Part shown: positions 24,998 through 56,905 of the stretch, piece by piece
How the letters are laid out: each line of letters starts with the position of its first letter
How positions within the stretch are numbered: the stretch's first letter is position 1
DNA from: Actinomadura sp. KC345
GTDB lineage: Bacteria; Actinomycetota; Actinomycetes; Streptosporangiales; Streptosporangiaceae
Assembly: GCF_004348515.1 (NCBI RefSeq)
Contig: NZ_SMKH01000003.1
Coordinates: 1 to 64,000, forward strand
Length of the DNA stretch: 64,000 nucleotides
Direction: 5' to 3'
Made by a program: the position numbers and the translations under genes
The notes under the pieces: generated by a model
Seen by the model: only the letters and a program-made list of their open reading frames with translations
What the model was told of the DNA's origin: nothing
Databases searched by the model: none

Positions 24998-25040
24998 TTC
25001 GCTCCTTTTTCCGACGCTCATTTAGGAGGGTAGCAGCTGG

Positions 25041-34728: not shown

Positions 34729-35875
34729 GCTCGGCCTCCAGTTCTCTGCTGATGATCAGGCGCTGGATCTCGGACGTGCCGGTGCCGATGGTTTCGAGCT
34801 GCGCGTCGGCGACGTAGCGCCCGATCGGGAAATCAGCGGTGAGCCCGTAGCTGCCGTGTACCTGCATGGCCTCGGTGGCGACGGCGCGGGCGGTTTCGGT
34901 GGTGAACAGTTTCGCGACCGACGCGGCGCGATGGAACGGCAGGCCGGCATCGGCGAGCGCGGCCGCCCGGTAAACGAGCAAGGTGGCCGCGTCGATCCCG
35001 ACCACCATGTCGGCCAGCTTGAACGCGACCGCCTGGAAGGACCGGATCGGACTGCCGAACTGCTGACGCTGGGAGGCGTAGTCGTTCGCGGCGTCGAAGC
35101 AGGCCCGGGCTAGGCCGAGTGCGCGGGCCGCATGCACCACACGCTCACCATCGAAGGTGGACATCAGCTTGGCGAAGCCGTTCAGATCGCCGCCGAGCAG
35201 GTCCGATTCGTCCACTGCGCAGCCGTCGAAGGCCAGTATCGCCGTGTCCGAGGAGCGCACCGAGGTCTTGCGCATCTTCTCGACCGTGATGAGGCCCGGG
35301 GCATCCCGTCGCACGACGAAAAGCCCGATGCCCCGGTGGCCCGCGTCGGGATCGACGACGGCGGCGACGATGTAGAAGTCGGCCAGCGTGCCGTTGGTGA
35401 TGAAGACCTTGCTGCCGCTGATCCGGTAGCCATCGGGGGTGCGTTCCGCGCGTGCCTTGATCGCACGGACGTCAGAGCCCGTATCCGGCTCGGTCACCGC
35501 GAGCGAGCCGACCATCTCGGCCGAGCCGAGCCCGGGCAGCAGTGCGGCCTTCTGCACCTCAGTGCCGAAAGCGCGGATGATACCGGGGACGACCGTGAGC
35601 TGGACGATGAGCGAGGTCGCGAAGCCGGCGCAGACCTTGGCGGTCTCCTCCACGAGCATGACCTCCGCCTGCAGGCCCGCATCGGAACCTCCGTACTCCT
35701 CCGGTACCCGCAGTCCGAGCAACCCGGCCTTGGCCCAGCGGTCGAAGAGCTCGCGCGGGAATGCCTCGTCACGCTCTGCGGCGGCGACCAGTGGCGCCAC
35801 CTCCCTGGCCGTGAAGGCGGTGACGACCTCGCGCAGCTCCTCGACCTCTGCCGGCGGAGCGTAGGCGGCCGTCAT
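34709..35875 (-). CDS. Acyl-CoA dehydrogenase lacking the canonical catalytic Glu
   Basis: The protein is 388 aa; the start at 35875 overlaps the DUF35 gene stop (ATGA). ACAD motifs: SLAVTEPDTGSDVRAI, RISGSKVFITNG, RQQFGSPIRSFQAVAFKLAD, QVHGSYGLTADFPIGRYV. At the C-terminal position where most members have Glu-Gly-Thr it reads IGTGTSEIQR. Isovaleryl- and some long-chain or steroid acyl-CoA dehydrogenases place the base elsewhere, so the enzyme may still be active, perhaps on a branched or cyclic acyl-CoA or as a heteromer. It ends inside the permease start. Confidence 0.87.
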   Translation of the reverse strand: MTAAYAPPAEVEELREVVTAFTAREVAPLVAAAERDEAFPRELFDRWAKAGLLGLRVPEEYGGSDAGLQAEVMLVEETAKVCAGFATSLIVQLTVVPGIIRAFGTEVQKAALLPGLGSAEMVGSLAVTEPDTGSDVRAIKARAERTPDGYRISGSKVFITNGTLADFYIVAAVVDPDAGHRGIGLFVVRRDAPGLITVEKMRKTSVRSSDTAILAFDGCAVDESDLLGGDLNGFAKLMSTFDGERVVHAARALGLARACFDAANDYASQRQQFGSPIRSFQAVAFKLADMVVGIDAATLLVYRAAALADAGLPFHRAASVAKLFTTETARAVATEAMQVHGSYGLTADFPIGRYVADAQLETIGTGTSEIQRLIISRELEAEHERRPR

Positions 35876-36285
35876 GCCGGCTGGAACCGCAGCAGGGTCA
35901 CCTCGTCGGTGACGGCGTCGAAGACCGCGGTGACCGGCTGGTCGATGGCGAGCGCGTCCAGGTCGTCGGTCTCGATGGTGGCCACGACGCGCGGGCCCTC
36001 GTCGAGTTCGACCACGGCGTAGGCGTAGGGCACGTCGGCCTTGAACGCCTCGAAGGGCGCGCGGTGGATGACCGTGAAGGAGTAGATCTTCCCGGTGCCG
36101 ACCATCTCGTCCCAGCCGAGATCGGTTCCGCCGCAGTGCCGGCAGATCGAGCGAGGATAGAACTGGAGCCGCTCGCAGCTCGTACAGCGCTGCATGAGAA
36201 GCCGTCCGGCGCGCAGGCCGTCCCAGTACGGCGCCGCCTCCGGCGCCGGTGTGGGCAGCGGCTTGACATTCACGTCGATGGCCAC
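35872..36285 (-). CDS. DUF35 protein (zinc-ribbon plus OB fold)
   Basis: The protein is 137 aa with a GTG start after GAGGGGAG. The rubredoxin-like zinc ribbon has RCTSCERLQFYPR and SICRHCGG (CxxC...CxxC, residues about 34-52), followed by an OB-fold acyl-CoA-binding domain (GKIYSFTVIHR; YAYAVVELDEGPRVVATIE). DUF35 proteins partner thiolase-fold proteins; in steroid side-chain degradation a DUF35 domain activates the aldolase Ltp2. A candidate partner here is the Cys-less thiolase-like protein encoded at 48274. It overlaps neighbours on both sides. Confidence 0.85.
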   Translation of the reverse strand: MAIDVNVKPLPTPAPEAAPYWDGLRAGRLLMQRCTSCERLQFYPRSICRHCGGTDLGWDEMVGTGKIYSFTVIHRAPFEAFKADVPYAYAVVELDEGPRVVATIETDDLDALAIDQPVTAVFDAVTDEVTLLRFQPA

Positions 36286-37091
36286 GGGTTCTCCCCTCTA
36301 CGCAGCTCTCCGTGCCGGTCCACCCGGGTACGGAGCAGCTCCAGTTCTTCCTCGGCGGGTGCGGCCGTCTCGCCGACCGTCTCGGGGATCTCCAGTTCGA
36401 AACCGGTCGCCGCGACGATGTCACTCACCGTCACGCCCGGATGGGCTGTGCGCAGCCGCATCCGTCTCGTCGCCTCCGGAAAGTCGAACACCCCCAGCGG
36501 GCTGATGCACAGCTCAGGCCCGCCGCGGAGGCCCAGCCCCTCCCGTGCCCCGGTGGTGCCGTCAAGCCAGCCGGGACAGCTTATGTAGTCACATTTCGCA
36601 ACAAATGTCGATGGCGAGTGACGATTAAGTAGAATGTTGAACGATTCCGCCACCGCGGTGACGGACGGCGTCCCGACGCTGCCCGCGCCGCGCATCGCCG
36701 GTCTTCCGTCACGCGCCGTGACCCCGAGCAGGTTCGAGTTGCCGTAGGGATCGACCTGCAGCGCGCCCACGAAGAATCCGCGCCAGTGGGCGACCCGGCG
36801 CATCCCGCCGAAGATGTCCTCGACCACCCGGTAGTGCTCGGCCCAGCGCGCCCCCCGCCAGTCGGTGACGTAGGAGAACCGGTCGATCACGGGGTTGTGG
36901 TAGATGTTCGTGGTCGTCATGGAGATCAGCATTCGCATGCTGGGGCCGCGCATGAGGTGGCCGAGCACCGTGCCCGCCCGGATGGCGGGCAGGGCGGCGC
37001 CGACGAAGGCCGGCCGGTGGTCCTCGATCTGGCGCGAGATCAGGCAGGCCAGGAACTCCGGATAGGTGTAAGAGGTCGTCGACGTCGTCAC
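36270..37091 (-). CDS. CoA-transferase family I beta-type subunit (IpdB-like), pair 1
   Basis: The protein is 273 aa, start overlapping the alpha-type gene (37088-37091). Features: FLACLISRQIEDHRPAFVGA, AGTVLGHLMRGPSMRM, FFVGALQVDPYGNSNLLG, GAGSVGTPSVTA and PLGVFDFPEATRRMRLRTAHPG. The conserved tail GVTVSDIVAATGFELEIPE is typical of CoA-transferase beta subunits, while the catalytic SENG of true transferases is not evident. IpdAB in steroid catabolism is such a pair and hydrolytically opens a carbon ring. A ring-opening or CoA-transfer role is therefore inferred. Confidence 0.78.
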   Translation of the reverse strand: MTTSTTSYTYPEFLACLISRQIEDHRPAFVGAALPAIRAGTVLGHLMRGPSMRMLISMTTTNIYHNPVIDRFSYVTDWRGARWAEHYRVVEDIFGGMRRVAHWRGFFVGALQVDPYGNSNLLGVTARDGRPAMRGAGSVGTPSVTAVAESFNILLNRHSPSTFVAKCDYISCPGWLDGTTGAREGLGLRGGPELCISPLGVFDFPEATRRMRLRTAHPGVTVSDIVAATGFELEIPETVGETAAPAEEELELLRTRVDRHGELRRGENPWPST

Positions 37092-37975
37092 GGGTGCTCC
37101 CCCAGTCCGAACAGCCGCCGCAGGCCGATGAGGTCGAGGTAGTCATGGTGGTCGGCGCAGCCGTACACGTAGCGATCGAGCCACTCGGCCAGCGTGGCGC
37201 CACCGGACTTGGCCGCGGCCACGTAGTCGTGCAGGAAGTCCTCGTCCTCCACGAAGTAGCCGGGGCTCGCGTAGGGATGCGCGCCGCCGGGCGCGTGGAC
37301 CACCATGTCGGCGTCGGGGATGGTGGTGAGCCAGGGGGCGCGGCGGATGCCTTCGTTGCTCTCGATCCTTTCGACCTGCACAACCGTCAGGTCGGCCGCC
37401 TGGCTCTGCAGACGGTCGGCGAAGCCCGTGCCGATGGGCTGCACGTTGCCGTAGGCGTCGGCGGTCGCGGCGTGCAGGATGGCGACGTCCAGCGGCAGTG
37501 CCCGGACCGCGAGCAGTGCCGGGCCGCCGAACGGGTCCTCGATCGGGCGCAGGTCGGGGTTGCGGTCGGGCAGCGCGGTGCCGACGCCGCCGCGCCAGGC
37601 CTGGAACGGGACAAGCTGTGCCGCGGCCCGCAGGCCCTGGACCCAGATCCCCTCGTCGACCTCGCGAACCGCGACGTCACCGTGCTCCACCGCACGCCGG
37701 TAGGCCGGGCCGATGGAGGCGAGCCGCTCGGCGCCGACATAGGAGCAGACGACCTCCCGGACGCAGCCGGCGGCGATCAGCAGGTCCACGTCCAGGCCGG
37801 CCATCGGGCCCGCGACGACGGTCAGGTCCCGTGCGCCCTGCCGGATCACCTGGTGCAGCAGGGCCATCGGGTGGCTGGAAGTGCCCAGCCCACCCACACC
37901 GATGGTCATGCCGGATTCGACGCACCGGGCGGCCGTGGCCATGTCGGCGACGACGCGCTCCCTTGTGGCGGTCAT
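37088..37975 (-). CDS. CoA-transferase family I alpha-type subunit (IpdA-like), pair 1
   Basis: The protein is 295 aa. It begins with SGMTIGVGGLGTSSHPMAL (the GGxG segment of alpha subunits), then LTVVAGPMAGLDVDLLIAAG, VREVDEGIWVQGLRAAAQ, and HAATADAYGNVQPIG. The acidic VREVDEG segment corresponds to the region where, as I recall, IpdA has its key Glu. It pairs with the overlapping beta-type gene and has a second paralogue at 42591. Start at 37975 overlaps the acyl-CoA dehydrogenase stop (ATGA). Confidence 0.78.
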   Translation of the reverse strand: MTATRERVVADMATAARCVESGMTIGVGGLGTSSHPMALLHQVIRQGARDLTVVAGPMAGLDVDLLIAAGCVREVVCSYVGAERLASIGPAYRRAVEHGDVAVREVDEGIWVQGLRAAAQLVPFQAWRGGVGTALPDRNPDLRPIEDPFGGPALLAVRALPLDVAILHAATADAYGNVQPIGTGFADRLQSQAADLTVVQVERIESNEGIRRAPWLTTIPDADMVVHAPGGAHPYASPGYFVEDEDFLHDYVAAAKSGGATLAEWLDRYVYGCADHHDYLDLIGLRRLFGLGEHP

Positions 37976-39108
37976 AGACCGAGTCCTCTCGCGATGATGT
38001 CCCGCTGGACGTCCGAGGCTCCGCCGCCGATCTCGTACATCTTGGCGTCGCGGAAGTGCCGTTGGACGACCCTGTCCTTGGTGTAGCCGTGGCCGCCTTC
38101 GAACTGGACCGCCTGGTGGGCCGCCTCCATGTACGTCTCGGTGGCCGCCAGCTTGGCGACCGAGGCGTCGAGGTGCACCGGGGCGCCGGTGGCGAGCCCG
38201 TCCGCGACGGCCATCGTCGCCAGCTCGGCCGCGTCGATCCGCATCGCCAGGTCGGCGAGGCGGTGACGGACCGCTTGGAGGTCGGACAACGGTCGGCCGA
38301 ACTGCCGGCGCTCACGCAGGTAGCCGATCGCGTGTTCGAGCAGCAAACGGGACCCACCCGTCGCGATCGCCGCCGTGGCGAGCCGCTCCATGTCCAGGCC
38401 GCTGCGCAACAGCCGCCAGCCCTCACCGTCGCCGCCCACCCGCGCGCTCGCCGGGACGCGGGCGCCGGTAAGCGTGACCACCGCGGTCCCGGTCGCCCGG
38501 ACGCCGAGCGTGTCCAGCCGTTCGGCTCGCATGCCGGGATTGCCGGCCCACACGACCAGCGCGAGGATGCCGTCCCGGCCCGAGCTCCCCGGCTCCCGGG
38601 CGAGGACCAGCACCGCGTCGGCGACGTGCGCGCCGGTCGCGTACAGCTTCTCGCCGTCGATGACGTAGCCGTCGCCGTCGTGGCGCGCCGTGGTGGCGAG
38701 GGCCGTCACGTCGCTGCCGGCACCGCGCTCGGAGGCGCCGAACGCCATGTGGATGTCGCCGCGGGCGAACCGCGGTAGCAGCCCGGCGCGTTGCTCCGGC
38801 GAGCCGAACCGTTCCAGGACGGTCGCGCAGAGCTGCTGCCGGACGATCAGATTGGCGAAGTCGGGAAACGCCCGGCCTGCCTCGCTGAAAAGGATCGCAA
38901 GCGCGGTGGCGTCCTCGCCTCGGCCGCCGTATTCGGCGGGCAGGCAGGCGCCCAGGAGACCGGCCTCGCCGGCGGCCTTGAACAGCTCTTCCGGGAAGCG
39001 GCCCCGGGCGTCGCACTCGTCGGCGTACTCCGGGGTGCAGTGCTCGGCGAAGAAGGCCCGGAACTCTTCCCGCAGGACGCTCTCGCGCGTGTCTTCCGTG
39101 AGTCTCAT
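37972..39108 (-). CDS. Acyl-CoA dehydrogenase, atypical C-terminus
   Basis: The protein is 378 aa. ATG at 39108 gives a perfect ATGA overlap with the ligase stop; an ATG 7 codons upstream is less likely. Motifs: AFGASERGAGSDVTAL (signature 1 with an unusual FGASERG in place of TEP), VIDGEKLYATGAHVAD, RQFGRPLSDLQAVRHRLAD, EGGHGYTKDRVVQRHFRD. The C-terminal base position reads IGGGASDVQR, without Glu. Both departures suggest a specialised member, perhaps half of a heteromeric enzyme with the acyl-CoA dehydrogenase at 43499 or 34709. Confidence 0.85.
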   Translation of the reverse strand: MRLTEDTRESVLREEFRAFFAEHCTPEYADECDARGRFPEELFKAAGEAGLLGACLPAEYGGRGEDATALAILFSEAGRAFPDFANLIVRQQLCATVLERFGSPEQRAGLLPRFARGDIHMAFGASERGAGSDVTALATTARHDGDGYVIDGEKLYATGAHVADAVLVLAREPGSSGRDGILALVVWAGNPGMRAERLDTLGVRATGTAVVTLTGARVPASARVGGDGEGWRLLRSGLDMERLATAAIATGGSRLLLEHAIGYLRERRQFGRPLSDLQAVRHRLADLAMRIDAAELATMAVADGLATGAPVHLDASVAKLAATETYMEAAHQAVQFEGGHGYTKDRVVQRHFRDAKMYEIGGGASDVQRDIIARGLGL

Positions 39109-40673
39109 CCGATCCGCTCCCGGTCCCATGTCTTCGGCCCGACTCCCCGGTCGCGCAGCCGGAACTTCTCCACCTTGCCGGTCTGGGTGCGTGGCAGCCC
39201 GTCGGCGATCTCCCAGTACCGCGGCACCATGTAGCGCGGCATATGCTCAGCGCAGAAAGCGGTCAGCTCATCGAGGCGCGGCTCCTGGCCGCGCTTCGGC
39301 ACGATCACCACCATGACGTCCTCTTCGGAGAGCGCGGACGGCACGCCGAACGCGGCGCAGTCCTCCACCTGGGGCCAGCGCGCCACGACCGACTCGACCT
39401 CCCAGGACGAGATGTTCTCGCCGCGCCGGCGGATCGCGTCCTTCGCACGGTCGACGAACGTGTAGTAGCCGTCGGCGTCGCGCCTGGCGAGGTCGCCGGT
39501 GTGGAACCAGAGGTTGCGGAACGCCGCCGCCGTCGCCGCGGGCATGTTGTAGTAGCCGGACATCATCGAGTGGGGCCGGTGCGGGCGGGTGACGATCTCG
39601 CCGACCTCCCCGTCGGGGACCTCTTCGTCGTCCGCGTCGACCAGGCGCACGTCGAACGCGCCGATCGGCTTGCCGCATGTGCCGCCCCGGACGTCGTCGA
39701 GCGAATTCCACAGCACGACGTTGGCCTCGCTGGAACCGTAGATCTCCACGAACCGGAGGCCGAAGCGTTCCTGGAACGCCGGCAGTATCGCCGGGGGTGC
39801 GGGCGCGCCGAACGCGATCCGCAGCGGATTGTCCCGGTCATCGTCCCCGGCCGGCACGGCGTGCAGCAGGGACACCGTCGAGCCCATCATGTTGGCCGAG
39901 GCGGCACCGAAGCGCCGGACGTCGTCCCAGAACCGGGTGACACTGAAGCGTTCAGCGAGCGCGAGGACACCGTCGTTCGCGAGCGCCGGCATCGTCGCGA
40001 AGTACTGCGCCAGCGTGTGGAAGAGCGGGTAGGAGCAGTAGTGCGTCTCTCCGGGACGCAGCCCGAGCATCTTCACCGTCTCCTCGGCCCAGGAGATCGC
40101 GCAGCCGTGCGGGAGGACGACGCCTTTCGGCGGGCCAGTGGTGCCGGAGGTGTACATCACCGCGGCGTGGTCGCCCGGCCCGACCACCGGAAGCGTGCGG
40201 GCGGCCACCGGCAATGACCGGAGTGGACGGACAGCGAGCCCGCGAGGATCGTCGGGAAGCTCGCCCCGCGCAAGGACGACGCGCAGATCGGTCAGGTCTT
40301 CGCGGATCTCCAGGACCCGGGCCAGCAGGTCACTGTCAGCGATCAGCACCCGGGCCTCGCAGTTGTTGAGCACATAGGCGAGACCGTCGCGGCGGTACTC
40401 GGTGTTGACCGGCACCTCCACGGCGCCGGCGAGGTTGACGGCGAACCAGCACCGGTGGAAGTCGAGCGAGTTGTGCAGGGCTATCGCGACCGTGTCCCCC
40501 GGCCGGACGCCGATCTCCACAAGTCCCGATGCCAGGCGCAGCGCGTCGGCGTAGAGCTCCCCGTAGCTGATCGTCTCGTCCTGGAAACGCAGCGCGGGCA
40601 GGGAGCCGTTGCGCTCCGCCTTGGTCCGCAGGAACGTTGGAATCGTGCGGTCACGGCCGCTGAGGACCTGCAT
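39105..40673 (-). CDS. Adenylate-forming acyl-CoA ligase (CaiC-like)
   Basis: The protein is 522 aa with ATG at 40673, overlapping the CaiB-like stop by one base. Motifs: VMYTSGTTGPPKGVVLPHG, EIYGSSEANVVLW, WFHTGDLARRDADGYY, RAKDAIRRRGENISSWEVES and the C-terminal Lys in TQTGKVEKFRL. It follows a CaiB-type CoA-transferase gene, the pairing seen in carnitine-type metabolism where ligase and transferase share acyl-CoA intermediates. It activates an acid of unknown structure. Confidence 0.87.
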   Translation of the reverse strand: MQVLSGRDRTIPTFLRTKAERNGSLPALRFQDETISYGELYADALRLASGLVEIGVRPGDTVAIALHNSLDFHRCWFAVNLAGAVEVPVNTEYRRDGLAYVLNNCEARVLIADSDLLARVLEIREDLTDLRVVLARGELPDDPRGLAVRPLRSLPVAARTLPVVGPGDHAAVMYTSGTTGPPKGVVLPHGCAISWAEETVKMLGLRPGETHYCSYPLFHTLAQYFATMPALANDGVLALAERFSVTRFWDDVRRFGAASANMMGSTVSLLHAVPAGDDDRDNPLRIAFGAPAPPAILPAFQERFGLRFVEIYGSSEANVVLWNSLDDVRGGTCGKPIGAFDVRLVDADDEEVPDGEVGEIVTRPHRPHSMMSGYYNMPAATAAAFRNLWFHTGDLARRDADGYYTFVDRAKDAIRRRGENISSWEVESVVARWPQVEDCAAFGVPSALSEEDVMVVIVPKRGQEPRLDELTAFCAEHMPRYMVPRYWEIADGLPRTQTGKVEKFRLRDRGVGPKTWDRERIG

Positions 40674-41809
40674 CACACGGCTCCTTCCGCGCGTAGCACG
40701 GCCGGGTCGAGGCCGAGCCCGGTCAGCACTTCGTCGGTGTGCGCGCCGAGCGCCGGCGCGGGCGTGTGAGCACCGTCGCCGAAGCGCGTCACGGGCGTCG
40801 CCAGCTGGCGCCCGGCACCGACCTGGATGGTCAGGCCGCGGGCCGCGAAGTGGTCCGAGTCGGCCGCCTCCTCGGGCGTCAGCACCGGCATGAAGCACGA
40901 GTCCTCGGCGCCCAGCAGCTCCTCCCACTCGGCGCGGGTCTTCGTCGCGAACACCTCGCGCAGCGTTTCCTCGGCCTCCCTCGTCTGGTGTGAATCGACG
41001 AGACCGGGCCGACCGATCACCGCGCACGTGCGGCGCCAGAACTTCTCCTCGTAGTCGGCGATCGTCACGTAGCCGTCCTTGGCCCGGTAGATGCCGTAGT
41101 TCGCGTGGCCGCCGTTAAGCGGCAGTCCGCCGGGCTCGTACGCGACGCCGGCGCCGAGCCAAGCCGACAGGTGGTTGACGAGCCCGAGCGTCGAGCCGTC
41201 CAGCATGGACACGTCGAGGAAGCGGCCGCGGCCGGTGCTCCCGCGTTCGAGCAGGCCGACGAGCACCGCGACGGCCGCCGTGATGCCTCCGCCCCACACG
41301 TCGGCGATCTGCGGGCCGACGAGCGCCGGCGCCTCGCCGGCCGCACCTGTCAGCGCGGTGATTCCGGCCGCCGCGAGGTAGTTGAGGTCATGACCGGGCC
41401 GCCTTGCATACGGGCCGGTCTGGCCGTACCCGGACAGCGAGCAGTAGACAAGGCGCGGGTTGAGCGCGGACAGCTCATTGAAGCCGGCGCCCAGCCGGTC
41501 CGCCACTCCCGGTCGAAAACCCTCGATGAGCACGTCCGCGTCGGCGGCCAGGCGGCGCAGCACGTCCTGACCTGCCGGTGTCTTGAGGTCGAGCGTCATC
41601 GAGCGCTTGTTGCGGTTGGCCGCCGCGAACATCGCGCCCATCTCGCCGGCCACCGGCGGCACCCAGCGCATGTAGTCGCCCTCGCCCGGTCGCTCGACCT
41701 TGAGCACGTCGGCGCCGAGATCGGCGAGGATGAGCGTGGTGACGGCACCTGGGAGCAGCTGGGTGAGGTCGAGCACCCGGAGGCCGGCACATGCACCCGT
41801 GCGGGTCAT
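40673..41809 (-). CDS. CaiB/BaiF-type (family III) CoA-transferase
   Basis: The protein is 378 aa with ATG at 41809 (ATGA overlap with the beta-type gene). Features: GLRVLDLTQLLPGAVTTLIL, ADLGADVLKVERPGEGDYMR, NRNKRSMTLDLKTPAGQD, CSLSGYGQTGPYARRPGHD and the region with the catalytic Asp, PQIADVWGGGITAAVAVL. The family transfers CoA between acids without ATP, often from a pathway end product to the incoming substrate. Here it could recycle CoA from a ring-opened diacid. Confidence 0.9.
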   Translation of the reverse strand: MTRTGACAGLRVLDLTQLLPGAVTTLILADLGADVLKVERPGEGDYMRWVPPVAGEMGAMFAAANRNKRSMTLDLKTPAGQDVLRRLAADADVLIEGFRPGVADRLGAGFNELSALNPRLVYCSLSGYGQTGPYARRPGHDLNYLAAAGITALTGAAGEAPALVGPQIADVWGGGITAAVAVLVGLLERGSTGRGRFLDVSMLDGSTLGLVNHLSAWLGAGVAYEPGGLPLNGGHANYGIYRAKDGYVTIADYEEKFWRRTCAVIGRPGLVDSHQTREAEETLREVFATKTRAEWEELLGAEDSCFMPVLTPEEAADSDHFAARGLTIQVGAGRQLATPVTRFGDGAHTPAPALGAHTDEVLTGLGLDPAVLRAEGAV

Positions 41810-42591
41810 GATCGCAGCATCCCGGTGGGGTCGACCCGCGTCCGCAGGATCTCCAGCTCTTCGTCGGTCGGCTCGGGGGTGAACGGCACGTCGTCGGGGA
41901 TGACCAGCTCGAATCCGGTCGCCTTCACGACGTCGTCGAGGGTCACGCCGGGGTGGATGGACTTGACGCGCATCCGCTTGGTCTCCGGCTCGAAGTCGAA
42001 GACGCCGAGCGGGGTGTAGCAGTAGCGCGGGCCGCCGCCCGGAATATGCCACTTCTCCCGGGTGCCCGGTCCATCGCCCCAGCCGAGCGCGGAGACGAAG
42101 TCCACCTTCGGCACGAAGATGCGCGGGTTGTGCGTCTGGCTGTAGAGGTAGTAGCGGTTGGTGAACGCGGCCATGTTGCCGGTGCCGACCCCACCGGGGC
42201 CGCGGAACTTCAGCCTCGAATGGTCGTCGCCGACGCCGAACAGGTTGGAGTTGCCGAACCGGTCGATCTGGATCCCGCCGACGTAGAAGATCCAGTTGGC
42301 TCGCTGCTTCATGTTGAGAAAGCCTTCATCGTGCGCCCAGTACGACTCGCCCCACTGCGCGGCCCGCCAGTCGGTGATGAACTCGAACGGCCGCAACTCC
42401 GGCACGTCCACGAGGTTGGCCCGGGTCCAGGAGAGCAGCACCAGCATGTTCGGGCCGTGCATCAGGTGAGCGAGCAGCACGGCCGCCCGCGGCACCGGCA
42501 GGTTGGCGCCGACCGGGACGCCGAGGCCGTCCTCCAGGTCCCGCGCCATCACGCAGGCCATGAGCTCCTTGGTCGTGACTTCGGTACGCAT
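41806..42591 (-). CDS. CoA-transferase family I beta-type subunit (IpdB-like), pair 2
   Basis: The protein is 261 aa; ATG at 42591 overlaps the alpha-type stop by one base. Features parallel pair 1: ELMACVMARDLEDGLGVPVG, AAVLLAHLMHGPNMLVL, YVGGIQIDRFGNSNLFG, PGGVGTGNMAAFTN, PLGVFDFEPETKRMRVKSIHP and GVTLDDVVKATGFELVIPDD. The shared layout shows duplication of the whole alpha/beta unit with considerable divergence. A second hydrolytic C-C cleavage or CoA-transfer step is inferred. Confidence 0.78.
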   Translation of the reverse strand: MRTEVTTKELMACVMARDLEDGLGVPVGANLPVPRAAVLLAHLMHGPNMLVLLSWTRANLVDVPELRPFEFITDWRAAQWGESYWAHDEGFLNMKQRANWIFYVGGIQIDRFGNSNLFGVGDDHSRLKFRGPGGVGTGNMAAFTNRYYLYSQTHNPRIFVPKVDFVSALGWGDGPGTREKWHIPGGGPRYCYTPLGVFDFEPETKRMRVKSIHPGVTLDDVVKATGFELVIPDDVPFTPEPTDEELEILRTRVDPTGMLRS

Positions 42592-43502
42592 CAGAACTCG
42601 TTCAATCCGAAGAGCCGGCGGCTGCCGAGCCGATCGAGGTAGGCCATGTGATCCTCCGGTCCGTACACATAGGTGTCGAAGAACTCGTCGAGCAGGTCGC
42701 GGTCGTCCTTCGCTCGCCATCGTTCGGCGGCGGCGACGTAGTCCTTGAGGAACGGGATGTCCTCTAGGTAGTGGCCGAGGCTGGAGAACGGGTGCGCGCC
42801 GAACGGAGCCCGGACGACGTTCCGCACCAGCGATATCGAGGTGCGTTCGGGGGCTCGGCGGATCTCCTCGTTGGAGACGATCCGCTCGACCGAGACGATG
42901 ACCTTGTCGGACGCCCGGGCGATGGCCCGGTCACCGAAGCCGCTGCCGACGTGCTGAATGTTGCCGTACGGGTCCGAGACGCTCGCGTGCAGCAGGGCGA
43001 AGTCCGGCGCGACCGCGGGCACGGCGATCAGCGGCTCGCCGCGGATCGGGTCATCGAAGACCTTGAGGTCGGGGTTGACCTCGGGGAACGAAGTCCCGAC
43101 CAGGGCGCGCCAGGGCAGGAAGGGCAGGTTCTGCGCGGCCGCGTTGAGCGCGCAGTAGTACATCGCCTCGTCGATCTCCCAGATCTTCACATCGCCGGAC
43201 TCGGCCGCCCGGCGGAAGGCGGGCCCGATGCCGACGATCGTCTCGCCGCCCACGTACGGACTGATCACCTTGGTGACGCAGCCGGCCGCGATCAGCATGT
43301 CGACCTCGAGACCCGAGGTCGCCGCACCCATCACGGTGAGCCCCTTCGGGCGGCGGCGGATCACCTCGCGGACGAGGCTCATCGGGTGGCCGGAGTTGGC
43401 GAACCCGCCGATGGCCACGGTCATGCCGTCGCGCAACCCGTCGAGGGCGGTCACCTCGTCCGTGACGACGACGCGGCGGTCGGTGGAGTTGACGCCTTTC
43501 AC
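42591..43502 (-). CDS. CoA-transferase family I alpha-type subunit (IpdA-like), pair 2
   Basis: The protein is 303 aa with a GTG start overlapping the acyl-CoA dehydrogenase stop (GTGA). Features: RDGMTVAIGGFANSGHPMSL, LTVMGAATSGLEVDMLIAAG, DVKIWEIDEAMYYCALNAA, HASVSDPYGNIQHVGSGF and the tail YVYGPEDHMAYLDRLGSRRL. IWEIDEA aligns with VREVDEG of pair 1. The C-terminal extension of about 60 residues, present in both pair-1 and pair-2 alpha proteins, is longer than I would expect of a simple CoA-transferase alpha subunit. Confidence 0.78.
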   Translation of the reverse strand: MKGVNSTDRRVVVTDEVTALDGLRDGMTVAIGGFANSGHPMSLVREVIRRRPKGLTVMGAATSGLEVDMLIAAGCVTKVISPYVGGETIVGIGPAFRRAAESGDVKIWEIDEAMYYCALNAAAQNLPFLPWRALVGTSFPEVNPDLKVFDDPIRGEPLIAVPAVAPDFALLHASVSDPYGNIQHVGSGFGDRAIARASDKVIVSVERIVSNEEIRRAPERTSISLVRNVVRAPFGAHPFSSLGHYLEDIPFLKDYVAAAERWRAKDDRDLLDEFFDTYVYGPEDHMAYLDRLGSRRLFGLNEF

Positions 43503-44635
43503 CCGAGCAGCTCCTTTGCGATGATGTTGCGCTGGATCTCGTTGGTCCCGGCCCCGATCGGATGGATCAACGCATCGCGCAGGTAACGCTGCATCGGATG
43601 CTCCATCGTGTACGAGTAGCCGCCCAGCACCCGCATCCCGTCTCCGGCGACGTCGACGCAGGTCTCGGTGGCCCACACCTTCGCCATCGACGCGGCGCGG
43701 GTGGAGGACAGGCCGTTCGCCTCCAACCACGCCGCCCGGTGTGTCAGCAGGCGGGCCTGCCGCAGCCGCACGTGCGCGTTCGCGAGCCGGTGCCGGATCG
43801 CCTGGAAGGACCCGATCGGCACGCCGAACTGCTCGCGCTCCTTGGCGTAGGCGACCGCGTAGTCGAGCGCCGCCTGGCCGGTTCCCAGAGTCATGGCGGC
43901 GCAGGCGATGCGCTCGCGGTTGAGGCTCGCGACGGTGTAGCGCCAGGCCTCGTTCTCCGTGCCGAGCAGGGCGTCCGCGGGCAGGTCCACGTCGTCGAAG
44001 AAGACCACGCAGGTGTGGTACGGCCTGAGGCCGAGCTTGGGCATCCGCTGGATGGTGATGCCGGGTGTCTCCGGGTCGACGAGGAATATCGAGAGCCCGT
44101 CCCTGCCCGGCCCTCCGGTGCGGGCGATCAGCAGGATGACCGATGCCATGTCCGCGCCGGTGCAGAACATCTTCTGCCCGTTGATCCGCCAGCCGTCGCC
44201 GGTCTTGCGTGCGGTCGTGCGGACGCTCGCGGCGTCGGAGCCCGCCGACGGCTCGGTCAGGGCGTAGCTGACGTAGGCCGTGCCTGCGGAGATCGCCGGC
44301 AGCCAGGCCTGCTTCTGCGCCTCCGTGCCGACGTCGCGGATCGTCTTGCCACAGGTCAGCACCGTCACGAGGAAACACGCGGCGAGCGGCGTCATCGCGT
44401 AGCCCAGCTGCTCCACGACCAGAGCCTCGTCGAACGCATCCCCGCCGGAGCCGCCGTACTCTTCGGTGAACGGCAGTCCCTGCCAGCCGAGGTCGCCGAG
44501 TCCACGGTAGATCTCGTTCGGGAAGGTCTCGGTCTCGTCGGCCTCGCGGGCGAGGCTCAGCGGCACCTTCTTCGCGAGGTAGTCGCGGGCGGAGTCGCGC
44601 AGCGCGGCCTGTTCGGGCGAGAGGGTGAAGTCCAT
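43499..44635 (-). CDS. Acyl-CoA dehydrogenase, atypical C-terminus
   Basis: The protein is 378 aa; ATG at 44635 shares its first base with the upstream ligase stop. Motifs: YALTEPSAGSDAASV, RINGQKMFCTGADMAS, REQFGVPIGSFQAIRHRLAN, RVLGGYSYTMEHPMQRYLRD. The usual Glu near the C-terminus is replaced: HPIGAGTNEIQRNII. It resembles caproyl/crotonobetainyl-type acyl-CoA dehydrogenases overall. It lies between the PaaK-like ligase and IpdA-like gene, so it probably dehydrogenates the CoA ester made by that ligase. Confidence 0.87.
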   Translation of the reverse strand: MDFTLSPEQAALRDSARDYLAKKVPLSLAREADETETFPNEIYRGLGDLGWQGLPFTEEYGGSGGDAFDEALVVEQLGYAMTPLAACFLVTVLTCGKTIRDVGTEAQKQAWLPAISAGTAYVSYALTEPSAGSDAASVRTTARKTGDGWRINGQKMFCTGADMASVILLIARTGGPGRDGLSIFLVDPETPGITIQRMPKLGLRPYHTCVVFFDDVDLPADALLGTENEAWRYTVASLNRERIACAAMTLGTGQAALDYAVAYAKEREQFGVPIGSFQAIRHRLANAHVRLRQARLLTHRAAWLEANGLSSTRAASMAKVWATETCVDVAGDGMRVLGGYSYTMEHPMQRYLRDALIHPIGAGTNEIQRNIIAKELLG

Positions 44636-45978
44636 CAGATGCTCCGTTCCACGAGCCGGACCTTCGCGGCGCCCGGGGGTTCCAGCTCACCGGCCGGCAC
44701 GATGCGCACGTCGGCCCGGAACGAGAGCCGGCTGCGGATCGCGGAGGAGATGTCGCGAGCGAGTTCGTCGTGTGCGTCGGCGGGCGTGTCGGGCGCGTGC
44801 TCGACCTTGAGCATGAGGTTCTCGTTGGTGACGTGGCCGGCGAAGTCGAGCACGATCCGCATGGCGCCGGTGGTGCGCGGGGCGAAGTCGGCGACGACTC
44901 CCTGCACGGCGGTGGGCCAGACGTTGATGCCCCGCACCAGCAGCATGTCGTCAGTACGGCCCTCGCAGCGCAGCTTGTAGCTGGTGCGGCCGCAGGCACA
45001 GTCGGTGTCGATGATCTGGACCATGTCGCCGCTCCGGAAACGGATCAGTGCCGACGCCTCGCGTTGCAGCGCGGTGTAGAGCAGTTCGCCGGTGGCGCCC
45101 GCGACGGGCTCGACGTGACGACCCGTGACCGGATCGACGATCTCCGGGAGCACGAGGCCCTGCCCGATGAAGTGCATGCCGTCGCGTTCGGGGCACTCCG
45201 CCCAGACGATCGTCGCGATGTCGGAGTTGCCCAGCACCTCGCAGCAGGTGGCTCCCCAGCCGTCCTGGATCCGCGCGCGGATCGCCGGGAGACCACCGCC
45301 GGGCTCGCCGCCCACCACCAGCTTCGCGATCGCGAGGTCGTTCGCCGACACCCCGATCGTCTCCATGCATTTGTCGGCGAGGTAGAGCGCGAAGTTCGGC
45401 GCGGTGCACATCGCGACCGCCTCCTGCTCCTTCGCAACGGTCAGGATCTTGTGCAGACCGGCTTCCGCGCCGACCGGGATGACCGTCGCGCCGAGGTGCG
45501 CGAGCATCCGGACCACCGGCACCCCGCCGGTGAATCCTTTGCTCAGCGACCAGGCGTGCAGCACCACGTCGCCCTTGCGGAAGCCGGCCGCGTAGAAGGC
45601 GCGCGCACCGAGTTCGTTCCAGGTCGCAATGTCGGCCTCGGTGACGCCGAGGTAGGACGGCGACCCCGTGGTGCCGGAGGTCGCCTGGATCTGCACCAGC
45701 CGCGCGCGGTCGACGCCGAGGTGGCGCCCCAGCGGGGGCGCAGCGGCGAGCGAGGCGCGGATTTCCCGCTTGTCTGTCGTCGGGATCCTCGTCAGGTCGT
45801 CCCAGTCACGAATCTGGTATTCCGGGCCGATCCCAGCGGCGTCGAACAGGTCCGCGTAGAACGGCGAGCGGGATCGCACGTCGGCGATCTGGCGGGTCAC
45901 GCGCGTGAAGGCGTCGGCCACGACCTCGTCCCACGGCGCGCTCTCGGCGGCGGCGTAGACGTCAACATTCTGTCCCAC
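44635..45978 (-). CDS. Phenylacetate-CoA ligase-like adenylate-forming enzyme
   Basis: The protein is 447 aa with a GTG start at 45978 after AGGTAGGTG; an in-frame-looking ATG 10 bp inside is in another frame. It has PaaK-family motifs: SPFYADLFDAAGI, QATSGTTGSPSYLGVT, a metal or structural cluster DTDCACGRTSYKLRCEGRTD, VRGINVWPTAVQGVV and the C-terminal VRLVERS. The family activates aromatic or cyclic carboxylic acids. It is the first gene after a perfect operator palindrome (45996-46013) and probably heads the ACAD/IpdAB/CaiB operon. Confidence 0.87.
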   Translation of the reverse strand: MGQNVDVYAAAESAPWDEVVADAFTRVTRQIADVRSRSPFYADLFDAAGIGPEYQIRDWDDLTRIPTTDKREIRASLAAAPPLGRHLGVDRARLVQIQATSGTTGSPSYLGVTEADIATWNELGARAFYAAGFRKGDVVLHAWSLSKGFTGGVPVVRMLAHLGATVIPVGAEAGLHKILTVAKEQEAVAMCTAPNFALYLADKCMETIGVSANDLAIAKLVVGGEPGGGLPAIRARIQDGWGATCCEVLGNSDIATIVWAECPERDGMHFIGQGLVLPEIVDPVTGRHVEPVAGATGELLYTALQREASALIRFRSGDMVQIIDTDCACGRTSYKLRCEGRTDDMLLVRGINVWPTAVQGVVADFAPRTTGAMRIVLDFAGHVTNENLMLKVEHAPDTPADAHDELARDISSAIRSRLSFRADVRIVPAGELEPPGAAKVRLVERSI

Positions 45979-45995
45979 GAGGCACCTACCTGGTT

Positions 45996-46013
45996 ATGGA
46001 GCGAGCGCTCCAT
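45996..46013. promoter_or_regulatory. TetR-type operator, best copy
   Basis: ATGGAGCG-AG-CGCTCCAT has perfectly complementary 8-bp half-sites around a 2-bp centre. It lies 18 bp upstream of the PaaK-like start, over the likely promoter, in the 84-bp gap after the CoA ligase stop at 46063. Confidence 0.8.
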
Positions 46014-46062
46014 CTATAAAGTCAGACAGTCTTCGGGATGTCAAGGGCCATCCGGGGCCTGA

Positions 46063-47646
46063 TCAGCTCAGATTGGGCCGACGCAACCGCAGGCCGGCGG
46101 CCTCGCAGTCCCAGCTGTCGGCGGTCACGCCGGCCTCGCGCAGCCGGTACTTCTGAACCCGCATGCTCGGCGTCTTCGGCAGTTCCGCGGCGAAGCGGAT
46201 GTAGCGCGGGACCATGTAGTAGGGCAATCGCTCCGCGCAGAAGTCGAACAGCTCGCGCGGCACCACCGGCGCGCTCGTCGTCGCCACGAGCATCACGTCA
46301 TGCTCTCCGAGCGGCGACGGCACGCCGATCGCGGCTGCCTCGACGACGCCCGGAAAGGTCGCCGCGATCGATTCGATCTCCCAGGCCGAGATGTTCTCCC
46401 CGCGTCGGCGGATCGAGTCGGTCTTGCGCTCGACGAACGCGAGGTATCCGTCCGCGCATCGCTGTACGAGATCGCCAGTGTGATACCAGAGGTCGCGCGT
46501 TACGGCCACGGTCTCCCGATCACGCCCGAGATAACCGGACATCATCGAGGCCGGTTCGCGCGGCCGCACCAGCAGCTCACCCTCGCCGGCCGGCGCGCCG
46601 TACTCGTCGACGACCGATATCTCGTAGTGTGGCGAGGGCAGCCCGACCGCGCTCGGCTCGACCGCGTCGTAGGGTTGGACGACGGTGAGACCCTGCTCTG
46701 TGGATCCGTAGCCACACAGGATGCGCACTCCGAACCGGTTCTCGAACTCCCGGCCGAAGCCGGCCGGCCACGGAATGCTCCACACCACCCGGACGCGGTG
46801 CGCGCGGTCGTGTGCGTCCGGCGGTTGCTGGTGCAGCAACGGCGTCATCGAGCCGAACGACCAGATGTGCGTGGCACCCAGCTCGGCCATCCGCTGCCAG
46901 AAGCCGCGGGGCGAGAAGCGGGTGTCCACGATCGCCTGTCCATGGTGGAGGAGGGCGAGCTGCACGTTCACCGCCTGCGCGGTGATGTGGTAGAGCGGCA
47001 ACGGGGTGTAGAGCACATCGCCGGGACCGAACCGCACCGCCCGTCCGGTGTCGTCGGCCCAGCACATGAAGTAGCCGTGTGGACAGACGACACCCTTGGC
47101 CGGCCCGGTCGTACCGGAGGTGTACATGATCGCGATCGGATCGGCCGGCGTGAGATTCGCCGGCGCGACCGGGTCGGCGTCGGCCACCTCGTCCCACGGG
47201 ACGTGACCGTGATCGGGGTCCGCCTGCCCGACCACCACGATGATCTTCAGCGGCAATGACGGCAACAGCGGCCGGACGACCGGCAGCAGGTCCGCCGCGA
47301 CGATGAGCACGGTCGCGCCGCAGTCGGCGAGCACGTGGTGCAGCAGCGGTCCGCTCAGGTTCGTGTTGACCGGGACCTCGACCGCGCCGATCACAGCCGT
47401 GCCGAACCAGGCCAGCACGGCCTCCTCCCGGTTGGGCAGCATGACCGCCACCGGGTCGCGGCGTCGGACGCCGAGCCGCGCGAGCCCGCCACCGACCCGC
47501 AGTGCGGCATCCGCGATCTCACCGACGGACCGCCGAGGCCCGGCGCCGACTGTGAGAAGCGGCGCGTCCGGAGCGGTCTCGGCACGGTGCAGCAGCAGGT
47601 GCGGAAGCACCCGCTCACGCAGCGGCACCGTGCGTCGCTCAGCCAT
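46063..47646 (-). CDS. Adenylate-forming acyl-CoA ligase (CaiC-like)
   Basis: The protein is 527 aa with ATG at 47646. Motifs: IMYTSGTTGPAKGVVCPHG, CGYGSTEQGLTVVQPY, WYHTGDLVQRCADGYL, RKTDSIRRRGENISAWEIES. At the C-terminus the usual catalytic Lys motif reads TPSMRVQKYRL, with Met-Arg before the position where the other island ligases have TGK or TAK; the Lys of VQKY is kept. It is 30 bp after the TetR gene. It probably charges one of the pathway acids. Confidence 0.85.
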   Translation of the reverse strand: MAERRTVPLRERVLPHLLLHRAETAPDAPLLTVGAGPRRSVGEIADAALRVGGGLARLGVRRRDPVAVMLPNREEAVLAWFGTAVIGAVEVPVNTNLSGPLLHHVLADCGATVLIVAADLLPVVRPLLPSLPLKIIVVVGQADPDHGHVPWDEVADADPVAPANLTPADPIAIMYTSGTTGPAKGVVCPHGYFMCWADDTGRAVRFGPGDVLYTPLPLYHITAQAVNVQLALLHHGQAIVDTRFSPRGFWQRMAELGATHIWSFGSMTPLLHQQPPDAHDRAHRVRVVWSIPWPAGFGREFENRFGVRILCGYGSTEQGLTVVQPYDAVEPSAVGLPSPHYEISVVDEYGAPAGEGELLVRPREPASMMSGYLGRDRETVAVTRDLWYHTGDLVQRCADGYLAFVERKTDSIRRRGENISAWEIESIAATFPGVVEAAAIGVPSPLGEHDVMLVATTSAPVVPRELFDFCAERLPYYMVPRYIRFAAELPKTPSMRVQKYRLREAGVTADSWDCEAAGLRLRRPNLS

Positions 47647-47676
47647 GCCAGCCCTCCATCGGACCGGCGGCGCGGG

Positions 47677-48258
47677 TCAGCGAGCCGCGACCCCGTTGAC
47701 CACCAGGTCGGCGAAATAGTCGGCGATCTCCGCACTCGTGCGCTCGCCGCCCGGCCGGAGCCACTGGTAGGACCAGTTGGTAAGGCCGAGGATGCCCAGC
47801 CGGGTCAGCCGGACGTCGAGGTCCTCGCGCAGTTCCCCGGCCTCGATCCCATCCGAGATGATCTTGTCGACCAGGGCATCGACCTGGTCGCGCTCCCGCT
47901 GAATGTCCTTCCGGGCATCTTCGGGTAGTGCGTGCCCCTCGCGCAGGAACACGGTGACCTCGGCCTGATGGGTCTCCACAACGCCGAGCACCACGTGGAT
48001 GAGTCCGCGCAACTGGTCGGTCGGCGAGGGCTTGGACTCGATTACCGCCGTCAGCCGGTCGATCAGGTCGAGGCTGAACGCGTGGTGCAACTCGTAGAGG
48101 AGCTGACCCTTGGATTGGACGTGGTGGTAGAGGGAACTCTGCCCGACCGACGCGTGCTCGCCGATCTCGCGTACGGATGTCGCGGCGTAGCCCTGTTCCA
48201 TGAACAGCTGAGCTGCAACCTCGAGGATCCGGGCCTTGACATCTCCACCCTTGGCCAT
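47677..48258 (-). CDS. TetR-family regulator, probable controller of the island
   Basis: The protein is 193 aa with ATG at 48258. The N-terminal HTH is intact: KARILEVAAQLFMEQGYAAT, VREIGEHASVGQSSLYHHVQ. The ligand domain includes VVLGVVETHQAEVTVFLREG and is of the type found in acyl-CoA-responsive repressors such as KstR2. It is the only intact TetR gene in the island and the natural candidate to bind the four ATGGAGCG-type palindromes; CoA-ester induction is inferred. No full palindrome lies directly upstream, only a half-like TTGCTCCA at 48261-48268. Confidence 0.87.
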   Translation of the reverse strand: MAKGGDVKARILEVAAQLFMEQGYAATSVREIGEHASVGQSSLYHHVQSKGQLLYELHHAFSLDLIDRLTAVIESKPSPTDQLRGLIHVVLGVVETHQAEVTVFLREGHALPEDARKDIQRERDQVDALVDKIISDGIEAGELREDLDVRLTRLGILGLTNWSYQWLRPGGERTSAEIADYFADLVVNGVAAR

Positions 48259-48273
48259 ATTTGCTCCAGTTCA

Positions 48274-49449
48274 TCACGGTTCGGCTCGTTCCAAAAGAAG
48301 GGTGCAGTGGACCGCGAGCATGCCGCCGATCCCGGTGACCAGGCCGCGACGGGCGTCGGCGACCTGGGCTGGCCCGGCGTCATGGCGCAGTTGTTTCACG
48401 GCTTCCGTGATGTGGAACGCACCGTTGCCGGAGTATGACAGTAGTCCGCCGTGCGTGTTGATCGGGATCGATCGAAATCCAGCACGCCGTTCGTCCGGGC
48501 CGGCGAGTGCCATGTGCCGACCGGCGACGTAGGGGCCGCCGCCGCCCTTCTCGACCAGCCCCAGGTCCTCGACCGCGGCCAGCACGATCACGCTGAACGC
48601 GTCGTAGATCTCGGCGAAGTCCAGATCGGCAGGGCCGAACCCGGCCGCCTCGTATGCCCGCTGGCTGGCCGGACCGAAGCCGAACCGGGTCAGGTCGCCA
48701 CTCTGGAACGGGTAGTAGTAATCACTGTGCTGTGACGAGCCGGCCACCACGGCCCGGCACTTCGCCGCGGCCTTGTCGTCGTCGGCGGGCCCGATGACGA
48801 CCGCGCCCGCGGAGTCGGAGACCAGAGCGCAGTCAGCGGCGACCAGTGGGGTCGCCACCGGGCGGGCACCAAGGATGTCGTCGACCGTGAGCGGGTCGGT
48901 GCGCTCGGCACCGGGGCGCAGCAGCGCGTGCTCACGCTGGATCACCGGGATCATCGCCAGCTGTTCGCGGGTGGTGCCGTATTCGTGCATGTGCCGGTGG
49001 GCGATCAGCGCGAGATTCGCCGGGATCAGCGGGCCGTACGGCAGTTCGTAATCCGGGTGGCCGACCTCGCCGATCATCGCGGCGATCGCGGCGTCCATCG
49101 TGTGCCAGCCGGTCTTCCGGTTATCGCCGAAGATCACCAGGATCCGCCGGGCCCGGCCGGTCTCGATCGCGCTGGCCGCGTTGGCCACTCCGACGAACGG
49201 GGCGGCGCCGCCGACATGTGCCGAGTCGATGTAGCCGACCGTCAGCCCCAGGTACTCGGCGACCGCGGCGGAAAGTACCATCTTGGGCTCGGTCAGCGAG
49301 TATCCAACGACGAGGCCGTCGATGTCGTCCTTCGTTAGCCCGGCGTCGTCGAGTGCCCGCTTCGCCGCGAGCGCGTGCAATTGCATAGAGCCTGTGCCTT
49401 TGGGCGGGTGGGTGACCTCGCCGATGCCAAGAACTGCGGCACGGGTCAT
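48274..49449 (-). CDS. Thiolase-fold protein without catalytic Cys (lipid-transfer/aldolase type)
   Basis: The protein is 391 aa; ATG at 49449 overlaps the ligase stop (ATGA). The fold is evident: AAVLGIGEVTH, YIDSAHVGGAAPFVGVANAA, FAEIYDAFSVIVLAAVEDLG, INTHGGLLSYSGNGAFHI. The nucleophile Cys of thiolases is absent (the segment reads DSAHVGGAA), and the GHP motif carrying a catalytic His is replaced by SYSGNGAFH. It is therefore not a normal thiolase. Related proteins (Ltp2) perform retro-aldol cleavage of beta-hydroxyacyl-CoA with a DUF35 partner, like the one encoded at 35872. Confidence 0.82.
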   Translation of the reverse strand: MTRAAVLGIGEVTHPPKGTGSMQLHALAAKRALDDAGLTKDDIDGLVVGYSLTEPKMVLSAAVAEYLGLTVGYIDSAHVGGAAPFVGVANAASAIETGRARRILVIFGDNRKTGWHTMDAAIAAMIGEVGHPDYELPYGPLIPANLALIAHRHMHEYGTTREQLAMIPVIQREHALLRPGAERTDPLTVDDILGARPVATPLVAADCALVSDSAGAVVIGPADDDKAAAKCRAVVAGSSQHSDYYYPFQSGDLTRFGFGPASQRAYEAAGFGPADLDFAEIYDAFSVIVLAAVEDLGLVEKGGGGPYVAGRHMALAGPDERRAGFRSIPINTHGGLLSYSGNGAFHITEAVKQLRHDAGPAQVADARRGLVTGIGGMLAVHCTLLLERAEP

Positions 49450-56858: not shown

Positions 56859-56905
56859 TGGAGCTGAGGGGATTTGAACCCCTGACCCCCTCGATGCGAA
56901 CGAGG
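56859..56905 (-). repeat. tRNA-Ala(CGC)-like 3' half, right att site
   Basis: Read on the minus strand this is anticodon loop TTCGCAT (anticodon CGC) closed by CCTCG/CGAGG, a variable loop, a perfect T-arm AGGGG-TTCAAAT-CCCCT and acceptor strand CAGCTCC with discriminator A. The expected D-arm and 5' acceptor strand are absent from the sequence beyond 56905, so the tRNA is not complete. It is the half-tRNA copy expected at one end of an element integrated in a tRNA gene. Bases 56880-56904 equal 18613-18637. Confidence 0.72.

Follow-up and report, generated by a model that had tools for sequence, protein, structure and literature searches.

A cysteine-less thiolase-fold protein of Actinomadura sp. 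KC345 as a candidate retro-aldolase subunit with a putative DUF35 partner encoded 12 kb away

What could a thiolase-fold protein do once it has lost both the nucleophilic cysteine and the Gly-His-Pro (GHP) motif of thiolases, and does it work with a DUF35 protein whose gene lies 12 kb away? This question is raised by a catabolic gene region of Actinomadura sp. KC345, which we analysed in a window of 64,000 nucleotides (contig NZ_SMKH01000003.1, positions 1 to 64,000, forward strand). The thiolase-fold protein is called P0001 and the DUF35 protein P0002 (Table 1). A preliminary description of this DNA had pointed to the Ltp2-ChsH2 aldolase as a precedent, and had suggested that the loss of GHP could mean a new reaction or a scaffold role. 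Based on sequence comparisons, we lean with moderate confidence towards a reading in which P0001 serves as catalytic subunit of a DUF35-dependent thiolase-fold retro-aldolase, with P0002, from the same gene string, as its zinc-ribbon/oligonucleotide-binding (OB) partner. By analogy with known systems, the two most probably cut carbon-carbon bonds in compounds activated with coenzyme A (CoA), with P0001 as a probable new variant among these aldolases.

P0001 matched the Pfam family Thiolase_C_1 at 1.8e-39, and its AlphaFold model (predicted local distance difference test, pLDDT, 89.3; predicted template modelling score, pTM, 0.92) is a confident thiolase fold. In VIA-align comparisons of this model, MtAACT (Z 52.2), Ltp2 (52.2), CtSal (52.1) and TbSLP (51-52) took the top ranks, followed by BbsB (48.8) and PhlC (47.6); SCP2-type thiolases reached 44-48 and other thiolases at most 38. 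The top Foldseek matches were 4u4e, CtSal and TbSLP. The model places P0001 on the SCP2/DUF35-linked side of the thiolase family.

For the active-site motifs, L118 and L119, SCP2-type thiolases from the same genome, served as yardsticks; these carry NNNCSTGS or QNACATGS, HDCF and KGHPLGAT. Aligned to them, P0001 has Gly81 at the column of the nucleophilic Cys, YDAF (Tyr282-Asp283-Ala284-Phe285) in place of HDCF, and a GHP loop that reads NTHGGLLSYSGN(gap)GAFH with Gly341 at the His column, which confirmed both losses claimed in the preliminary description. The shortened loop, NTHGGLLSYSGNGAFH (residues 331-346), is 4 residues shorter than in the next relatives. In summary, P0001 keeps the fold of canonical SCP2-type thiolases and lacks their Cys, HDCF and GHP, and it shares with the DUF35-dependent aldolases the Cys-less thiolase fold and the Tyr of YDxx; the marks proper to Ltp2 (YDHF and a second catalytic Tyr) and to CtSal (YDCY) are absent.

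To place these departures, P0001 was aligned with 127 relatives, namely thiolase-fold rows with a score above 190 and more than 300 residues, weak or short matches being left out; the contig scan behind them is a sample of at least 80 loci. Tyr occupies the column of the base Tyr282 in all 127. The Cys column holds Gly in 126 of them (with a Cys one column further in 18), and the same column of CtSal is described as Gly in excerpts of PMC12329534; thus, the missing Cys is a trait of the whole group.

Among solved sequences, the nearest to P0001 are 4u4e (2.3e-58), CtSal-Shy(DUF35) and Ltp2-ChsH2(DUF35), and the fold searches concur, so that the earlier appeal to Ltp2-ChsH2 holds and a DUF35 partner is plausible. 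The protein 4u4e, a 'putative thiolase' of Sphaerobacter thermophilus for which we know of no published function, also has no Cys at the nucleophile place, but differs from P0001 by YDSF and a His-Pro in the loop. BbsAB and the archaeal acetoacetyl-CoA thiolase/DUF35/3-hydroxy-3-methylglutaryl-CoA (HMG-CoA) synthase system likewise have a P0001-like fold and a DUF35 subunit, but they are named thiolases, and BbsAB and the archaeal acetoacetyl-CoA thiolase keep the Cys. TcLtp2, which forms a C3 side-chain steroid aldolase with the DUF35 protein ChsH2 (PDB 6ok1), shares with P0001 the fold and NTHGG without GHP, but it has YDHF and Tyr344 where P0001 has YDAF and Gly. CtSal, which forms a bile acid side-chain aldolase with the DUF35 protein CtShy (PDB 9myr), shares the fold, the Gly in place of the nucleophile and, according to excerpts of PMC12329534, the catalytic Tyr of YDxx and a DUF35 partner. 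It differs in its YDCY with an essential Cys, in a DUF35 that is fused to a hydratase, and in a Cys3His1 zinc site as against the four-Cys pattern of P0002. In the same excerpts, Tyr302 is the base and Cys304 the acid of CtSal (C304A, C304S and C304H are all dead), and Tyr294 and Tyr344 are the corresponding residues of TcLtp2. Aligned to P0001, the GHP-less loops read NTHGGQLGEAY-IHG in Ltp2 and NTHGGQLSFGQSGTAGG in CtSal.

Judged by sequence, the nearest functional precedent that shares the motif is IpfD, encoded on pIBU218 of Rhizorhabdus wittichii and identified there by position, with dioxygenase genes on one side and DUF35 and AMP-binding genes on the other. Like P0001, IpfD combines YDAF with Gly at the Cys column and a GHP-less loop, and a DUF35 gene, ipfE, lies beside its own. 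The two thiolase-fold proteins are 32% identical and differ in that the ipfD gene adjoins its DUF35 gene whereas that of P0001 does not, and in that the position of Ltp2 Tyr344 is Tyr in IpfD and Gly in P0001; no ring dioxygenase was seen in the gene string of P0001. Excerpts of PMC9195938 describe a retro-aldolase step of the ibuprofen pathway that yields propionyl-CoA and 4-isobutylcatechol, and report no growth on ibuprofen for a mutant with an insertion in ipfD, a phenotype to be read with the caveat that such insertions can exert polar effects there. Since Ltp2, CtSal and IpfD also lack GHP, and IpfD has the very same YDAF, the suggestion that GHP loss signals a new reaction or a scaffold was not borne out. 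About 11 kb from ipfDE, pIBU218 carries a second thiolase-fold/DUF35 pair, which is Ltp2-like (L133, 5938-7502, minus strand; YDHF, GEAYIHG).

P0002 matched both halves of DUF35 in Pfam (zf-ChsH2, 1.1e-14; OB_ChsH2_C, 1.1e-22) and carries a CxxC-x10-CxxC four-Cys pattern. The open reading frames (ORFs) of P0001 and P0002 lie ~12.0 kb apart, from the stop of one to the start of the other, as had been stated before; the word 'distant' used for this misleads, as both genes belong to one string of 19 co-directional genes, running from 53872 to 32782, with P0001 in fifth and P0002 in seventeenth place. Overlaps were found at 15 of the 18 junctions and gaps of 15, 30 and 84 bases at the others, several start codons having been chosen by hand; P0002 overlaps the preceding gene by 16 bases at its start and the following one by 4 bases at its stop. 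Between 45500 and 54600 we found no promoter-like site, and two terminator-like sites that were not above shuffled sequences.

The bookkeeping of both families in the whole genome points in the same direction. A search with P0001 gave 14 matches representing 13 thiolase-fold genes, nine of which have a DUF35 match within ~2 kb, one as a fusion (C166). All seven other Cys-less relatives have such a neighbour; since two of the nine accompanied genes (L128 and one of L122) carry the Cys, a nearby DUF35 gene is not exclusive to Cys-less mates. The four genes without a nearby DUF35 are C584 and C377 (Cys, HDCF, GHP), C568 (Cys, NEAF, loop unaligned) and P0001. Among DUF35 matches, 10 of 11 lie near a thiolase-fold gene and P0002 is the eleventh, the only one without such a neighbour. 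That both leftovers should be 12 kb apart in 8.27 Mb has a chance of ~0.3% by post hoc arithmetic. Elsewhere in the genome, the fusion (L126, 107-1828 of C166) joins DUF35 and a Cys-less thiolase-fold domain (YDGF) in a single open frame, as a natural fusion of both partners, and locus L122 (C100) holds at least two thiolase-fold genes, one of them with Cys, and three DUF35 matches.

Separated pairs also exist in related loci. For 90 of 127 thiolase-fold ORFs read in their loci, a DUF35 stop lies within 1.7 kb on the same strand; for 26 of the remaining 37, the DUF35 of the locus is on the opposite strand, where no thiolase-fold gene was recognised as its neighbour (25 loci named Streptomyces, one 'Actinobacteria bacterium'). 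The Roseobacteraceae plasmids pP73A and pPABY4 each carry one P0001-like gene and one DUF35 gene on opposite strands, ~9.6 and ~7.4 kb apart, counted on the plasmids alone and not on their chromosomes. Trees were built after near-identical rows had been removed at a 75% cut (127 to 36 rows), with the second copy of L087 omitted from several trees and L117 and L057, on long branches, from one DUF35 tree. The DUF35s of the two plasmids cluster with those encoded next to the thiolase-fold genes of L001 and L083 (97/97); in the thiolase-fold tree, the mates of these four branch in the same order (100/100). Similarly, six Streptomyces-type DUF35s group with the DUF35 of a Mycobacterium locus (100/98), as do their thiolase-fold mates. 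This agreement suggests that split mates can remain mates. The objection that P0001 has no partner as none is adjacent is weakened by these precedents and by the gene string.

Several points weigh against the proposed aldolase pair. The fold score cannot separate aldolases from SCP2 thiolases, which fit the model nearly as well (Z 44-48), and we discarded it as proof of membership in the aldolase group. The likeness of the hydratase P0018 to ChsH is weak, as the only PDB sequences it matched at E<=0.01 were ChsH2 and ChsH1, at ~5e-4. P0001 has Ala284 where CtSal has the essential Cys304, and Gly341 replaces both Tyr344 of TcLtp2 and the loop His that 114 of the 127 relatives keep. In addition, Leu146 stands where the eight nearest relatives have Tyr, a column which we take to be that of CtSal Tyr165, a Tyr that is not catalytic in CtSal. 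Finally, P0001 and P0002 do not co-branch: P0001 groups with two Natrinema proteins (99/98), and P0002, a short sequence far from all rows of the DUF35 tree, is placed loosely by two free trees (81/84, 68/83) with DUF35s of another thiolase-fold group, the group of whose mates is rejected for P0001 (p 3e-7). When P0002 is constrained to branch beside the Natrinema DUF35s, the tree is worse by 5.2 log units and the p value of the approximately unbiased test (p-AU) is 0.31, which neither rejects nor establishes this placement.

These trees bear on the alternative that P0001 is active without DUF35, as TbSLP is according to excerpts of PMC12329534, that the partner of P0002 was lost or replaced, and that the shared string is coincidental. 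It is also favoured by the relatives of P0002 in the order: all 19 loci read (L089-L107; 26 places were found) show a thiolase-fold gene as the direct neighbour of the DUF35 gene, while P0002 has none. We regard this alternative as unlikely, because every other Cys-less relative in the genome is accompanied by DUF35, because the same part of the family also contains co-evolving split pairs, and because the two leftovers of the genome lie so close together. Searches for orthologues of P0001 returned only P0001 itself, both in 298 family genomes at E<=1e-90 and, at E<=1e-75, in overlapping sets of 345 genomes from the order and 396 from the phylum.

The second issue is the catalytic acid. The absence of both described acids, the Cys of YDCY in CtSal and Tyr344 of TcLtp2 (Ala284 and Gly341 in P0001), was discarded as a trait of P0001 only, because it holds for 110 of the 127 relatives; nearly all of these have YDAF or YDSF plus the loop His, which may be their acid. 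When the acid residues of Sal (Cys) and Ltp2 (second Tyr) are counted together with the loop His, P0001 is the only one among the 127 aligned that lacks all three. The L126 fusion protein, outside the 127, likewise lacks them (YDGF, Arg at the loop-His column).

Such losses, together with the missing nucleophile, the Ala in YDxx and Leu146 for a conserved Tyr, would be expected if P0001 were a catalytically dead scaffold or a CoA-binding subunit. The missing loop His and the non-discriminating fold score make us slightly less confident in the retro-aldolase assignment and slightly more in a dead scaffold, which we still consider quite improbable. Tyr282, Asp283, Phe285, Asn331, Gly334 and Gly335, invariant in 56 of 56 rows, are all retained, and the YDAF-bearing IpfD acts in a pathway according to the excerpts of PMC9195938. 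Moreover, P0001 departs from 13 conserved columns and its haloarchaeal Natrinema relatives from 13 and 14 (range over the 56 rows, 0-20), and on this match we discarded the decay of a lone copy. Four departures (Ala208, Ala214, Arg311 and Gly341) are common to P0001 and L082 of Natrinema, which argues for a lineage with its own constraints rather than decay.

Outside P0001, the shortened loop was found among relatives only in the two Natrinema plasmid proteins, L082 and L112 (SYAGAGVFHI), which are 44-45% identical to P0001; all three proteins retain Tyr339 and His346. The Natrinema pair has YDCF where P0001 has YDAF, and at the L082 locus a DUF35 gene follows directly and two MaoC genes precede. 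Among the papers listed in our literature searches, we saw no description of such a lineage. Since P0001 has also lost the Cys of YDCF, no acid candidate of its group is left. It is possible, though doubtful, that the three proteins form a short-loop lineage (SYxGxGxFHI), with the GHP loop cut by four residues, in which P0001 either cleaves carbon-carbon bonds with a novel set of catalytic groups, be it Tyr282 together with Tyr339 or His346 or an enolate left unassisted, or performs another lyase reaction on a CoA ester.

Another explanation would be that P0001 keeps a different reaction of the fold, namely decarboxylation or thiolysis of a 3-oxoacyl-CoA. NCBIfam calls its relatives acetyl-CoA acetyltransferase, with P0001 under every cut-off shown, SCP2-type thiolases fit its model at Z 44-48, and TbSLP decarboxylates malonyl-CoA at 0.005 per second in the excerpts of PMC12329534. 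On the other hand, CtSal does not show malonyl-CoA decarboxylation in those excerpts, thiolysis requires the Cys where P0001 has Gly81, and an ordinary thiolase gene (Thiolase_N and Thiolase_C) is already present at 27783, further down the same strand. We judge this explanation very improbable.

Returning to the retro-aldolase reading, the neighbouring genes suggest a route in which it would operate. With three acyl-CoA synthetases and three acyl-CoA dehydrogenases in the string, as read from their sequences, an acid would be ligated to CoA and then dehydrogenated. P0018 would hydrate the enoyl product to a beta-hydroxyacyl-CoA; the second half of P0018 contains SGDFFPGHYD, presumably the Asp-His signature of the hydratase-2 type, and MaoC-type genes accompany the closest P0001 relatives inspected, in six of six annotated loci. 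P0001 and P0002 would then cleave the beta-hydroxyacyl-CoA to an aldehyde or ketone and a shorter acyl-CoA. Tyr282 would deprotonate the beta-hydroxyl group, the role of Tyr302 in CtSal and of Tyr294 in TcLtp2, and the candidates for protonating the enolate are Tyr339 and His346 of the short loop, or water.

Remaining rings or beta-keto units may be opened by two CoA-transferase-fold pairs, at 36270-37975 and 41806-43502, whose B subunits are ~45% identical. At the position of the GctB Glu, which we take to be Glu54 of CoA-transferases, both P0013 and P0009 have Ser in the alignment, and for this reason we call both pairs IpdAB-like. IpdAB itself, in excerpts of PMC5380842, is without the catalytic Glu54 of the CoA-transferase beta subunit and hydrolyses a ring. 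Relatives of P0013 at E<=1e-70 in 342 genomes were found only in its own genome, at 2 places. A thiolase-fold/DUF35 pair accompanies two of three IpdAB-like clusters (Paracoccus and Variovorax) and none lies within 29 kb in Rhodococcus opacus; the three were hand-chosen and give no rate, and the Paracoccus record stood in the match lists of both P0002 and P0013.

The gene set of the string resembles that of sterol side-chain and ring degradation. A separate YDHF/EAYIHG gene (L123), with a DUF35 1.6 kb away, is present in the same genome, so the string likely serves another compound, perhaps an alicyclic one.

Table 1 Genes of the 19-gene string in order, with positions in the window.
Feature	Position	Strand	Basis
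Luciferase-like F420-type oxidoreductase (TIGR03619), first of string	52946..53872	-	library match
P0018, MaoC-type hydratase, weakly ChsH-like	52053..52949	-	Pfam, PDB sequence search
Metallo-beta-lactamase-fold hydrolase	51032..52060	-	Pfam
P0006, acyl-CoA synthetase, directly before P0001, 4-base overlap	49446..51035	-	read from sequence
P0001, thiolase-fold protein, 391 residues	48274..49449	-	ORF translation, Pfam, AlphaFold, alignments
TetR-family regulator, directly after P0001	47677..48258	-	Pfam
P0005, acyl-CoA synthetase	46063..47646	-	read from sequence
PaaK-type CoA ligase	44635..45978	-	library match
P0015, acyl-CoA dehydrogenase	43499..44635	-	read from sequence
CoA-transferase-fold A subunit, pair 2	42591..43502	-	Pfam
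P0013, CoA-transferase-fold B subunit, pair 2	41806..42591	-	Pfam, PDB match GctB, then IpdB
Family III (CaiB) CoA-transferase	40673..41809	-	Pfam
P0011, acyl-CoA synthetase	39105..40673	-	read from sequence
P0003, acyl-CoA dehydrogenase	37972..39129	-	read from sequence
P0010, IpdA-like subunit, pair 1	37088..37975	-	best PDB match IpdA 6co6, 2.4e-33
P0009, B subunit, pair 1, directly before P0002	36270..37091	-	Pfam, alignment
P0002, DUF35 (zinc ribbon and OB fold), putative partner, 137 residues	35872..36285	-	ORF translation, Pfam
P0007, acyl-CoA dehydrogenase, directly after P0002	34709..35875	-	read from sequence
Branched-chain-type ATP-binding cassette (ABC) permease (LivHM-like), last of string	32782..34728	-	read from sequence

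Beyond the string, identical 25-base repeats at 18613-18637 and 56880-56904 flank ~38 kb of the window. An integrase-like gene, read from its sequence, lies at 18797-20152 on the plus strand beside the first copy, and 56863-56904 on the minus strand reads by eye like the 3' end of a transfer RNA (tRNA) with CCA; ARAGORN found no tRNA in the window, and Rfam gave nothing in 16000-58000 at gathering thresholds. With the flanking repeats, the tRNA-end-like site and the integrase, the catabolic genes probably sit on an integrative element. A further tRNA-3'-end-like copy at 17143-17181, outside the inner repeat and 95% identical to 56863-56901 over 39 bases, is perhaps the trace of an older insertion. 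Outside the 38-kb repeats, a DUF2637 gene and an FtsK/SpoIIIE-type ATPase gene (59171-61947, plus strand) look like transfer genes of actinomycete conjugative elements. In addition, a 268-residue ORF at 24215-25021 on the minus strand resembles coding sequence in its composition and matches no Pfam family at E<=0.001.

The sharp question left by P0001 is how an enolate would be protonated without the Sal Cys, the Ltp2-type second Tyr or the loop His that most relatives keep. If the assignment is right, P0001 would add a lineage to a young group of thiolase-fold carbon-carbon lyases that are often annotated 'acetyl-CoA acetyltransferase'. The DUF35 partner of such an enzyme can be encoded kilobases away and yet track its thiolase-fold mate, which means that pairs can be proposed without adjacency.

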